DNA of 41,501 bases from Thermofilaceae archaeon (GTDB taxonomy: Archaea > Thermoproteota > Thermoprotei > Thermofilales > Thermofilaceae), in NCBI GenBank assembly GCA_026986905.1, contig JALSNQ010000009.1, forward strand, positions 1 through 41,501, written 5' to 3'. How positions within the stretch are numbered: position 1 is the first letter of the stretch; each line of letters starts with the position of its first letter. A program made the position numbers and the translations under genes. Positions 5,063 through 41,501 of the stretch are shown here, piece by piece. Under the pieces are notes generated by a model. The model was not told the origin of the DNA. It did not search any database and saw only the letters and a list, made by a program, of their open reading frames with translations.

Positions 5063-5413
5063 ATGGGGAGTAGAGATCTGCGCCGTCTAACGAAGAGAAT
5101 GGGACTTAATATAAACGAGCTACAGGGAGTGGAGGAGGTGGTCATACGCTTCCCGGACAAGGAGATAGTCATTAAGAACCCCTCTGTGTCGGTCATAGAG
5201 GTGCGTGGAGGCGGGAGGATGTACAACATAGCGGGCGAGGAGGAGGAGAGGCCTCGCACGGCGGAAGAAGAGGAGACAAAGGTGGAGATAAGCGAGGAGG
5301 ACGTACAGCTGGTTGCAGCCCAGGCGGGCGTTACGCCCGAAGAGGCCCGTAGGGCACTTGAAGAAGCTGGCGGTGACCTCGCAAAGGCTATAATGCTCTT
5401 GTCGACGAGGTAA
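5063..5413 (+). CDS. nac: nascent polypeptide-associated complex protein (alpha NAC)
   Basis: MGSRDLRRLTKRMGLNINELQGVEEVVIRFPDKEIVIKNPSV plus C-terminal UBA-like helix (VAAQAGVTPEEARRALEEAGGDLAKAIMLL). Confidence 0.93.
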   Translation: MGSRDLRRLTKRMGLNINELQGVEEVVIRFPDKEIVIKNPSVSVIEVRGGGRMYNIAGEEEERPRTAEEEETKVEISEEDVQLVAAQAGVTPEEARRALEEAGGDLAKAIMLLSTR

Positions 5414-5424
5414 GGGGCGGGGTC

Positions 5425-6003
5425 TTGCTGGGCAAATACAAGAAGGCATTGGAGCGCCGCTTCCTAGGGGTGGCGCGGGCCGCTGCAGCCACACGGCTAA
5501 GCCCCAACGTGATAACGTTTTCCGGCCTGGTTTTCGGCGTGGCCGGGCTCTACATGCTAGCCGCATACTCCTCGCTGACTCTTTTTCTGCTAGGGTGCGC
5601 TGCTATGGGGTTGATGGACATGCTGGACGGCCTCGTGGCCCGCTATACGGGTAGTGCGTCGAGGTTTGGGGCGTTCCTGGACTCGACCGTTGATAGGGCC
5701 GAGGACGCTCTGATATCGGCGGGCTTCATGTACGCTGGGCTACTTTCTCCCGGAGAAGTGCTCCTCCTACTCACCGGGATGTTCCTTATAAGCTACACAA
5801 GGGCTAGGGCGGAGTCCCTCGGCGTGTCCATGTCGGGAGTCGGGTTTGCAGAGCGGCCGGAGCGTATACTTCTGGCCCTGCTTTCACTTATACTCGCCTT
5901 CGTGAGTTTAGGGGCGGCGAGAGCCGTGGCGTGGCTCCTCATCGTGGTAGTGTATCTCACGGTTGCCCAGCGTATACACTATGCCGCTAAGATGCTGAGG
6001 TGA
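5425..6003 (+). CDS. CDP-alcohol phosphatidyltransferase (archaetidylinositol-phosphate synthase-like)
   Basis: CDP-alcohol phosphotransferase motif DMLDGLVARYTGSASRFGAFLDSTVDR in a multi-TM protein. Confidence 0.9.
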   Translation: MLGKYKKALERRFLGVARAAAATRLSPNVITFSGLVFGVAGLYMLAAYSSLTLFLLGCAAMGLMDMLDGLVARYTGSASRFGAFLDSTVDRAEDALISAGFMYAGLLSPGEVLLLLTGMFLISYTRARAESLGVSMSGVGFAERPERILLALLSLILAFVSLGAARAVAWLLIVVVYLTVAQRIHYAAKMLR

Positions 6004-6008
6004 AGTGC

Positions 6009-7067
6009 ATGGTAGTCGAGATAGATGGCTCGATGGGTGAGGGGGGAGGCCAGCTGCTCAGGTACAGCGCAGCCATTTCCGCCATAACCGGCGTCCCAGT
6101 GAGGATCTACAATATAAGGGCTAAGAGAGCAAACCCCGGGCTCAGGCCCCAGCACTACGCGGCGTTGAGTTTCCTGGCACGCCTAGTCGACGCCGAGACT
6201 AGGGGGCTTAGGGTCGGCTCCACGGAGGTCTACTTTAGGCCGAGAAGAAGACCCCAAAGTGGGGTTTTTACCGTCGATATAGGTACGGCTGGCAGCGTCA
6301 CGCTCTTCCTGCAAGCGGTGACGCCTGTTCTGCTCGCCGCGTCCGGCCCCGTCACTCTAAGGGTGAGCGGTGGGACAAGCGTTAAGTGGAGCCCGCCCTT
6401 CCCCTACTTCGAGGAGGTGCTGGTTCCCCTCTTCAGGCTGTGGGGAGCTAGGGTGAAGGCTAGACTCGTAAGGAGGGGTTTCTACCCCGTGGGAGGAGGG
6501 CTTGTGGAGGTGTCTGCAGAGCCTTCTTTTCCACTTTCCCCGTTTAGGCTGGAGACGAGGGTTGTTTACCAGGCGGTCGGCGGCGTCAGCTACGTAGGTA
6601 ACCTGCCGTGCAGCATAGCTGAGAGGCAGAAGAGGGCTGCCGAGGGCTTCCTGAGGGAAAAGGGGCTGAGAAATATAGATATCCGAGTTGACTGCCGCAC
6701 GCCGGCCCGTGGGAGGGGAACGGGCATAGTGCTCTGGGCTAGGAAGGGCGAAGCCGTGATAGGCGGTGACTCCCTCGGTGAGCGGGGAAAGCCTGCCGAA
6801 AAGGTCGGCGGGGAAGCTGCCGTAAAGCTGTACGGGCCTCTCAGACGCGGCGTGCCGGTCGACCCCCACGCGTCCGATAACCTTGTAATATACATGGCGC
6901 TGGCGGGAGGTGTGTCTAGAATACTTACTTCCGAGCTCACTTCCCACGCTGAGACCGCGTTAAGGCTTTGCTCGATGATCGCCGGCGCCAAGTATAGGGT
7001 GGACAGGAGCGAGAAGGGCGATGCCGTGCTGATAGAGGTTGAGGGCGCCGGTCTACGGCCTAGATAA
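6009..7067 (+). CDS. rtcA: RNA 3'-terminal phosphate cyclase
   Basis: MVVEIDGSMGEGGGQLLRYSAAISAITGVPVRIYNIRAKRANPGLRPQH is the RtcA N-terminal signature. Confidence 0.95.
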   Translation: MVVEIDGSMGEGGGQLLRYSAAISAITGVPVRIYNIRAKRANPGLRPQHYAALSFLARLVDAETRGLRVGSTEVYFRPRRRPQSGVFTVDIGTAGSVTLFLQAVTPVLLAASGPVTLRVSGGTSVKWSPPFPYFEEVLVPLFRLWGARVKARLVRRGFYPVGGGLVEVSAEPSFPLSPFRLETRVVYQAVGGVSYVGNLPCSIAERQKRAAEGFLREKGLRNIDIRVDCRTPARGRGTGIVLWARKGEAVIGGDSLGERGKPAEKVGGEAAVKLYGPLRRGVPVDPHASDNLVIYMALAGGVSRILTSELTSHAETALRLCSMIAGAKYRVDRSEKGDAVLIEVEGAGLRPR

Positions 7068-39956: not shown

Positions 39957-40217
39957 ATGCGTGTGGACCTTATTGTGGTCGCGCGTATACTTGACGCTCT
40001 CCACGAGGAGGGGCGGATGAAGAAAACTAGGCTGCAGCTATATAGTAGGCTAAATTATCCTGCTTTTAAGAGGTATCTTGAATGGCTTGTTGAAAGAGGC
40101 CTTGTGAGGGTTGCTAGGGAGAAGGACGGCGAGTACGTGGAGCTTACGGAGAGGGGTAGGAGTAGCTATGAGACGCTAGTCGTGTGGGTCAAGCGTTACG
40201 TTGGAGAAAAGCTCTAG
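39957..40217 (+). CDS. small winged-helix DNA-binding protein
   Basis: LDALHEEGRMKKTRLQLYSRLNYPAFKRYLEWLVERGLVRVAREKDGEYVELTERGRS. Confidence 0.8.
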   Translation: MRVDLIVVARILDALHEEGRMKKTRLQLYSRLNYPAFKRYLEWLVERGLVRVAREKDGEYVELTERGRSSYETLVVWVKRYVGEKL

Positions 40218-40349
40218 GCCTTTTCCTACTCCGGGGACGCTGTTTCGTGCTTCCCGGTGTAGCGTTTCTGGTGGTTCGCCTAGTGCCCGGTGTAGTTGAT
40301 AGGTTCCCCGTGTCTAATATATGTAAGATATAATTTATATATGGGTTGT

Positions 40350-40360
40350 GTGATTATCAC
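40350..40360. promoter_or_regulatory. candidate ArsR operator, perfect palindrome GTGAT-T-ATCAC
   Basis: 12 bp upstream of ATG 40372, just downstream of TATA-like tataatttatatat (40329-40342), so near the predicted TSS. Confidence 0.5.
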
Positions 40361-40371
40361 TTGATGGCTGA

Positions 40372-40677
40372 ATGGGAGCTAGAGATGAGCTCAAAAAGCT
40401 TGCAGAGGTGTTGCAGGTGCTCGCGAACCCCGTGAGGCTTGAGATATTGGCGCTGCTCTCCGTAAGGCCCCGCTACGCCTACGAGCTTTCAAAGAAGCTT
40501 AAACTCTCGTATCCCCTGGTACATCTCCACCTGAGGGTTCTAGAGAAGGCGGGGCTCGTGGAGAGTACCTACGTTCCAGGGCCCAGGACTAAGAGGGTGT
40601 ATAGGGTGAAGAACTTTGTAGTCGAGATATCGCCTGAGAGGATGCGTGAGCTGGGTGAAGGCCTTGAAGGCGAGTAG
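40372..40677 (+). CDS. ArsR-like winged-helix transcriptional regulator
   Basis: LAEVLQVLANPVRLEILALLSVRPRYAYELSKKLKLSYPLVHLHLRVLEKAGLVESTYVPGPRTKRVYRV. Confidence 0.9.
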   Translation: MGARDELKKLAEVLQVLANPVRLEILALLSVRPRYAYELSKKLKLSYPLVHLHLRVLEKAGLVESTYVPGPRTKRVYRVKNFVVEISPERMRELGEGLEGE

Positions 40678-41014
40678 CGTTGTGATTGGGATCATAGGGA
40701 TCGCCGCAGGCCTCGCATTGATGGTGTATCTCCCATACCAGGTTATCGAGAAGGTCTCGGCGAAGCAGCTGGATCCCGTCTTTGGCGCAGTGGTCATTCT
40801 CTTGCTGCTATTAGCTGGCGGTGTTTTGAGCTTCTTCACGCTTGTCCTTCCTATACTGGAGTTTATGGGTGAGGAGGAGGGAGGCGAGGAGGAGGTGGAG
40901 GAGAAGCTTACAATGTACCGGGCGAGGCAGAGGGCTATGCTGGAGGAGCTTGATGAGATAGAGAGGACGCTGGAGGAGATACGGGACATATTGAAGAAGG
41001 GGATGGGGGAATGA
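40646..41014 (+). CDS. small membrane protein with C-terminal coiled coil
   Basis: Two hydrophobic segments (VVIGIIGIAAGLALMVYLPY; VFGAVVILLLLLAGGVLSFFTLVLPILEF), acidic linker, then RARQRAMLEELDEIERTLEEIRDILKKGMGE; overlaps the upstream and downstream genes. Confidence 0.83.
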   Translation: MSWVKALKASSVVIGIIGIAAGLALMVYLPYQVIEKVSAKQLDPVFGAVVILLLLLAGGVLSFFTLVLPILEFMGEEEGGEEEVEEKLTMYRARQRAMLEELDEIERTLEEIRDILKKGMGE

Positions 41015-41139
41015 GCGGGGAACTCAAGTACGCGGACTTGTCTGATGAAGAGGTTGAAGAGCTTATACTCAAGAGGCTCCGGGAAATAAAGGAGCTTCTC
41101 AGGGAGATAAGGGACATCTTCAAGGAGGTGGAGTCTTGA
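41011..41139 (+). CDS. 42-aa coiled-coil microprotein (not in ORF track)
   Basis: My translation: MSGELKYADLSDEEVEELILKRLREIKELLREIRDIFKEVES*; ATGA overlap with the upstream stop and TGATG overlap with the downstream start. Confidence 0.8.
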   Translation: MSGELKYADLSDEEVEELILKRLREIKELLREIRDIFKEVES

Positions 41140-41501
41140 TGGCCGACAAGTTCGACAAGTACATGAAGGCTTTGAAGGGCGGGGCCTCCCCGGTAGAGGG
41201 GGATGAGGTCTCTATTGCCGGGGCCGGCGTAATCCAGGGAGGCACGTACAAGGTCGTGAAGGCCAGTGGCAGCCTGAAGGTGCAGGGGCCTATGAGGGCC
41301 CGGGAGTTTAGGGTGGCAGGCAGTGCAAGGGTTGAGGGAGACCTTACGGCCGACCTAGTCAAGGTGAGCGGGGCCATAAGGGTTGAGGGGTCGCTTAGGG
41401 GGGACACGGTGAAGATTTCTGGCTCCGCTAAGGTTTCCGGCGTGGTGGCCGGCGGCCTTGTCTCCGTGGCGGGTGGTTTGAAATCGGGCGGCGTTGAGGC
41501 C
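41139..41501 (+). CDS. bactofilin-like / polymer-forming beta-solenoid protein, truncated by the window end (not in ORF track)
   Basis: My translation shows ~17-aa repeats: VKASGSLKVQGPMRAREF / RVAGSARVEGDLTADLV / KVSGAIRVEGSLRGDTV / KISGSAKVSGVVAGGLV. Confidence 0.8.
   Translation, partial: MADKFDKYMKALKGGASPVEGDEVSIAGAGVIQGGTYKVVKASGSLKVQGPMRAREFRVAGSARVEGDLTADLVKVSGAIRVEGSLRGDTVKISGSAKVSGVVAGGLVSVAGGLKSGGVEA

Follow-up and report, generated by a model that had tools for sequence, protein, structure and literature searches.

The end of a 41,501-nucleotide stretch of DNA from a Thermofilaceae archaeon (the window) carries four small genes that raise a simple question: do they form a conserved unit and, if so, what does that unit do? 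The original prediction, drawn from the sequence of the window, described four ORFs overlapping stop-to-start and read them as a single translationally coupled archaeal unit. Both parts held: the ORFs were found again at 40372-40677, 40646-41014, 41011-41139 and 41139-window end, and translational coupling is supported.

Organization of the cassette

The membrane-protein and microprotein genes overlap by 4 nt, and the microprotein and solenoid genes by 1 nt. Alignment with relatives makes a GTG at 40655 the more likely start of the membrane protein, giving a 23-nt overlap with the regulator gene. The features of the cassette are listed below.

40334..40342, + strand: TATA box (TTTATATAT), starting 38 nt 5' of the ArsR ATG
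40350..40360, + strand: GTGATTATCAC, 11 bp, perfectly palindromic and located where transcription is expected to begin; a candidate operator (from sequence)
40372..40677, + strand: ArsR-family winged-helix regulator, 101 aa, no cysteine (Pfam HTH_5 E=5.8e-13; nearest solved relative 2p4w)
40655..41014, + strand: membrane protein with two hydrophobic helices and a coiled-coil tail (YRARQRAMLEELDEIERTLEEIRDILKKGMGE), the tail probably cytoplasmic (start by alignment; longest ORF from 40646)
41011..41139, + strand: 42-aa microprotein MSGELKYADLSDEEVEELILKRLREIKELLREIRDIFKEVES (alignment A1 of 15 relatives)
41139..41501, + strand: 5' part (121 codons) of a bactofilin-like beta-solenoid gene, continuing on contig C15 to 230 aa
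41139..41180, + strand: conserved N-terminal motif of the solenoid (MADKFDKYMKALKG), common to nearly all fourth genes

A small winged-helix ORF directly 5' of the cassette (39957-40217, + strand; HTH_45, E=9.5e-11) is a separate regulator gene.

The assembly that includes the window measures 690 kb and is 57% complete; the window is its contig C9, whose end cuts the solenoid gene. Contig C15 of the same assembly overlaps C9 by 344 bases (window 41158-41501) with four mismatches, at 41181, 41292, 41357 and 41375, a pattern that suggests strain variation, and the two contigs can be joined at the overlap. The join is supported by a sister genome (G001, locus L035), which has an intact 229/230-aa solenoid homologue in the same position. 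Extension past 41501, proposed at the outset as a check, thus completes the solenoid on C15 to 230 aa, from MADKFDKYMKALKG to a C-terminal VKGEVVRR and stop codon.

Conservation of the gene order

A sweep of 398 Thermoproteota genomes recovered the membrane protein in 34 and the microprotein in 33. Every genome with the microprotein also has the membrane protein (33 of the 34 have both), the two genes adjoin, and there is essentially one cassette copy per genome. Close relatives among the matches listed come from Thermofilaceae/Thermofilales and from other Thermoproteota. The original prediction had staked itself on the four-gene order being kept in related genomes; the order of regulator, membrane protein, microprotein and solenoid is complete in about 30 loci from 12 families, with nearly all gene junctions falling between -26 and +22 nt. 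This conservation is far above chance.

The exceptions are loci cut by the end of a contig and a small number of decayed copies (L120, L122 and L133). At L122 (genome G335, 5408-6100, - strand), the regulator and membrane protein form one 230-aa ORF with a truncated ABC permease upstream; the locus is probably a decaying copy, and L120, from the same genus, also appears decayed. Long ORFs resembling a regulator-membrane protein fusion in families f9/f13 were discarded, as they are mostly a second reading frame, leaving L122 as the only true single ORF. It was not used as a Rosetta-stone argument because its cassette looks degenerate, with neither microprotein nor solenoid. L133 (genome G013, 5598-5744) has three apparently intact genes next to a truncated solenoid ORF of 48 aa, whose N-terminal motif is degenerate; the solenoid alone may have been lost here.

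The regulator and its putative operator

The first gene had been called an ArsR regulator, and this identity is firm: the protein matches Pfam HTH_5, the ArsR/SmtB winged helix, with 48.9 bits against a cut-off of 22. It stays below the cut-off of NCBIfam NF033788 (45.7 versus 55). The regulators of the window and of most relatives contain no cysteine and hence none of the metal-binding cysteines, which argues against thiol or metal sensing of the classical kind. The nearest solved relative is the ArsR-family structure 2p4w (E=4.8e-15), which we take to be Pyrococcus Phr. The likeness to this archaeal heat-shock regulator (NCBIfam NF053602) is that of an archaeal ArsR-type protein with the closest solved winged helix. 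The differences are in size and score, as 2p4w has 202 residues, about twice the length of the 101-aa window protein, with a further C-terminal part, and the window regulator reaches 44 bits against the NF053602 cut-off of 320.

Where a locus has retained a promoter of its own, the TATA element of the window usually recurs 32-52 nt 5' of the regulator gene. In two lineages, f2 and f9/f13, the TATA box at the operon promoter is followed by a palindrome, TATCARTWWWWNYTGATR, which stands before the regulator gene in f2 and before the ABC ATPase gene, the first of the operon, in f9/f13. When 10 genomes of these lineages were searched throughout, 8 had a perfectly matching site at the operon, which in six of them is the sole perfect site, where about 0.1-0.5 sites per genome are expected by chance. 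Since the consensus was drawn from these promoters, the informative observations are its occurrence in two lineages, its position before different genes and its near-uniqueness in each genome. Together these are good evidence that TATCARTWWWWNYTGATR is an operator dedicated to the operon and placed at its head; the natural inference would be that the operon is controlled by its own ArsR-type product. The palindrome also fits the earlier idea that the cassette is under ArsR control.

Elsewhere, the other extra perfect sites lie inside or near ordinary genes. A second promoter and operator in genome G055 (L143, C4 around 30962) are followed by the relic of a truncated ABC ATPase and then by an MFS gene, an arrangement that looks like promoter capture; this MFS protein is unrelated to those near L121/L123.

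Four Thermofilaceae genomes, that of the window (G000) included, were searched for the operator consensus and gave no match. The window has GTGATTATCAC in the same place relative to the TATA box as the palindrome of its relatives. It differs from the consensus and could be an operator or could have occurred by chance. Candidate target sites of the regulator are TATCAGTTTTAACTGATG and window positions 40320-40372. An inverted repeat around the Thermofilaceae TATA box (ATATGTAAG...TTTATATAT) was rejected, being inseparable from ordinary TATA/BRE composition.

The membrane protein and the microprotein

Neither the membrane protein nor the microprotein matches a Pfam or NCBIfam family above cut-off. 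The second gene had been described as a membrane protein with a coiled coil, and its relatives bear this out: every full-length one has two TM segments, followed by a charged, helical tail with the nearly invariant motif Y-x-ARQ-x-AML-E-x-LD...IRD-x-L. All 12 invariant residues of the alignment are within this tail motif.

The microprotein is 39–50 aa long in loci with the conserved order, keeps seven invariant residues in alignment A1 and is predicted to form an amphipathic helix (p=0.0002). Over 23 residues, its C-terminus shares 48% identity with the membrane-protein tail (hhalign P=9.7e-9), which makes a soluble paralogue of the tail the best interpretation of the microprotein. Such homology would fit the 'linker' role that had been proposed for it.

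The bactofilin-like solenoid

Bactofilins are studied as shape cytoskeletons. The fourth gene had been likened to this family on the basis of a repeat of ~17 aa; the repeat is real, and the likeness is supported at the level of sequence. The strongest periodic lags are 33/34 and 17, a result that none of 2000 shuffles reaches. While the truncated piece in the window scores 24.7 bits against Pfam Bactofilin (PF04519), below the cut-off of 27.9, the nearly whole protein scores 36.9 (44.2 in the sister genome) and full-length cassette solenoids range from 36.9 to 50 bits. Profile searches of PDB sequences rank two bactofilins at the top, 6ria (E=2.7e-4) and then 2n3d (E=7.5e-4). The solenoid is thus a bactofilin by the sequence criterion. 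Its scores against Toastrack models are below cut-off (DUF4097, 18.6 versus 22.9 bits; DUF2807, 18.2 versus 24.2). The AF2 model is all-beta, with a pLDDT of 90. The phenylalanine of the bactofilin polymer interface (TtBac F105) aligns with a non-aromatic residue here, in a repeat register that is uncertain.

In the Thermoproteales-like families f9/f13, the fourth protein is shorter and divergent, has no Pfam Bactofilin match and retains the same start (MAEKFDRYYEYF). Its AF2 model has an all-beta repeat body with a pLDDT of about 97 and an N-terminal helix of low confidence. Foldseek searches of the PDB with both AF2 models gave no significant solved match, the non-significant ones being mostly beta-helices. 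For the window protein, a right-handed triangular beta-helix like that of 6ria and 2n3d is a candidate fold. Between the two solenoid groups, hhalign aligns no more than the last repeats, so the evidence for homology of the divergent fourth genes is their position, their N-terminal motif and their predicted fold. This [K/L][F/L/M]xxYE-like motif opens nearly every fourth gene, the divergent ones included, and is predicted to be helical, at low pLDDT, in both models. Its retention across otherwise diverged solenoids suggests that the N-terminal segment may be a docking element. Stand-alone bactofilin-like solenoids of 224-391 aa (L047, L050 and L041) occur without a cassette in Thermofilaceae and one other family.

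An ABC-2 exporter in the neighborhood

Genes for a DrrAB-like ABC-2 exporter flank the cassette in 7 of the 12 cassette-bearing families. In f9/f13, an ABC ATPase and an ABC-2 permease immediately precede the regulator; in f2, f15, f42, f49 and one f1 genus, ABC genes immediately follow the solenoid. The permease is seen at L046, L049, L126, L127 and L128 and in f9/f13; at L043 (a contig end) and L125, only the ATPase is seen. Those neighbor sequences that were tested combine ABC_tran with ABC-2 membrane families, some having a DrrA-type C-terminal domain; of three permeases compared with Pfam, that of L117 passes the cut-off, that of L127 falls just below and that of L049 has no match.

Sampled genomes encode 19-65 ABC ATPases each, so chance adjacency is expected at roughly 4-7% per family, and adjacency in seven of 12 families has a P of about 5e-6 or less. 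More than one origin is probable for the association, because either side of the cassette is used and the ATPases clearly differ. ABC_tran paired with an ABC-2 permease, as in a DrrAB-like operon, is found in families of relatives and not in the window, where no ABC exporter adjoins the cassette; the same is true of most Thermofilaceae cassettes. This recurrent neighbor, absent from the original prediction, suggests that the output of the cassette is export or efflux.

Proposed working and alternative explanations

The reading that we put forward, at about even confidence, is that the cassette is a self-regulated operon module of Thermoproteota that would build a platform of proteins at the inner surface of the cell membrane, tied functionally to an ABC-2 (DrrAB-like) exporter. 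The ArsR-type protein would repress the operon by binding the palindrome at the transcription start. The two-helix membrane protein would display its coiled-coil tail in the cytoplasm, where the microprotein may pair with it, and the resulting coiled-coil patch could hold the solenoid through the conserved N-terminal helix. As a sub-membrane scaffold or oligomer, the solenoid would then position or gate the exporter and/or inform the regulator of membrane or toxicant stress. Since the Thermofilaceae cassette is mostly apart from ABC operons, it would act there on an exporter encoded elsewhere, or alone.

A more novel and more tentative version, which we favor somewhat less than even, is an undescribed archaeal form of envelope-stress or efflux control in which a bactofilin-family solenoid would be the sensor/scaffold, tethered by the hairpin protein and a heteromeric coiled coil with the microprotein, and would regulate both a repressor of the ArsR type and an ABC-2 exporter. 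The complex, the filaments and the stress signal in these proposals are all inferred.

The bactofilin match raises the alternative of a bona fide archaeal cytoskeleton for cell shape, anchored by the membrane protein and the microprotein, with incidental ABC neighbors. The Pfam score and the top PDB sequence matches are what such a protein would give, halofilins show that archaeal bactofilins are able to shape cells (PMC12186497), and bactofilin N-termini bind membranes (PMC12364344). However, exporter adjacency on both sides in seven of 12 families is unexpected by chance, a dedicated repressor with an operon-specific operator would be unusual for a housekeeping role, and the Thermoproteales-like solenoid is short and fails Pfam, making the cytoskeletal explanation unlikely. 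Taking the exporter at face value leads instead to an ordinary efflux operon, in which the toxicant being exported is sensed directly by the ArsR protein, and the three small proteins serve the ABC-2 exporter as assembly or activity subunits, with no signalling or scaffold role. The DrrAB-like ABC genes do share the operon, and Pyrococcus offers a precedent in TFB-RF1, which regulates both an ABC exporter and an operon with a membrane protein (PMC5937170). Yet most Thermofilaceae cassettes persist without adjoining ABC genes, and the clearly different ABC ATPases at two positions make it unlikely that the small proteins co-evolve as subunits of one exporter; we regard this explanation as rather improbable.

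Small overlapping genes with a likely autoregulator also recall toxin-antitoxin or anti-phage defence units, and PADLOC matches the regulator to Csa3. The PADLOC matches cover the winged-helix part of Csa3-type proteins and include no other cassette protein; moreover, the cassette is essentially single-copy in each genome, with no mobile-element context in the loci read, so that a defence role is very unlikely. Finally, the lack of a Pfam or NCBIfam family above cut-off for the microprotein and membrane protein might indicate chance ORFs or a functionless lineage-specific oddity. This notion is scarcely credible and is refuted by the strong conservation of all four proteins across families and classes, in which the same residues are held.

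Comparison with known systems

No description of the cassette was found in the literature searched, in which the combination of regulator, membrane protein, microprotein and bactofilin is probably undescribed. The flanking ABC-2 exporter and the palindrome at the operon promoter are new in this analysis.

The cassette solenoid shares with bactofilins (PF04519; TtBac 6ria, Caulobacter BacA 2n3d and the halofilins HalA/HalB) a Pfam-level sequence family, ~17-aa solenoid repeats, the absence of a signal peptide or TM segment and a short N-terminal helical or amphipathic segment. What sets it apart is its place in a conserved operon of four genes (the others encode a regulator, a two-helix membrane protein and a microprotein), the link to an ABC-2 exporter, the N-terminal motif [KL][FLM]xxYE and a fourth gene that is very divergent in Thermoproteales-like genomes.

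In regulatory logic, the cassette resembles TFB-RF1/PF1089 and the PF1011-PF1012 ABC exporter of Pyrococcus furiosus, where a regulator controls its own membrane-protein operon and also a multidrug-type ABC exporter via a palindrome near the promoter (PMC5937170). In contrast, TFB-RF1 is an activator, its palindrome TCTGAANTTCAGA is upstream of the BRE, PF1089 has four TM segments, and neither a microprotein nor a solenoid is reported (PMC5937170).

The best functional comparison, by analogy, may be the bacterial Toastrack module. According to the available portion of a survey (PMC11237479), PSP/Lia-type modules with Toastrack domains (DUF4097/DUF2154/DUF2807) are proposed sub-membrane signalling platforms that, like the cassette in its proposed form, combine a cytoplasmic beta-solenoid at the membrane with operonic TM proteins and a winged-helix regulator, and also include short helical SHOCT-like pieces and sometimes ABC transporters. 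The same portion mentions occasional transfers to Euryarchaeota and gives no account of this cassette. The cassette is no Toastrack module by membership, because its solenoid is of the bactofilin type, with weak DUF4097/DUF2807 scores below cut-off. PspC, LiaI-LiaF-TM, SHOCT and histidine kinase were not found in the cassette, and the membrane protein has no PspC or LiaI-LiaF-TM Pfam match. If the proposed working is true, bactofilin-type solenoids would gain a signalling or transport role in Archaea, a defined archaeal microprotein would have a predicted partner, and Thermoproteota would possess a counterpart to the bacterial Lia/PSP-type modules.
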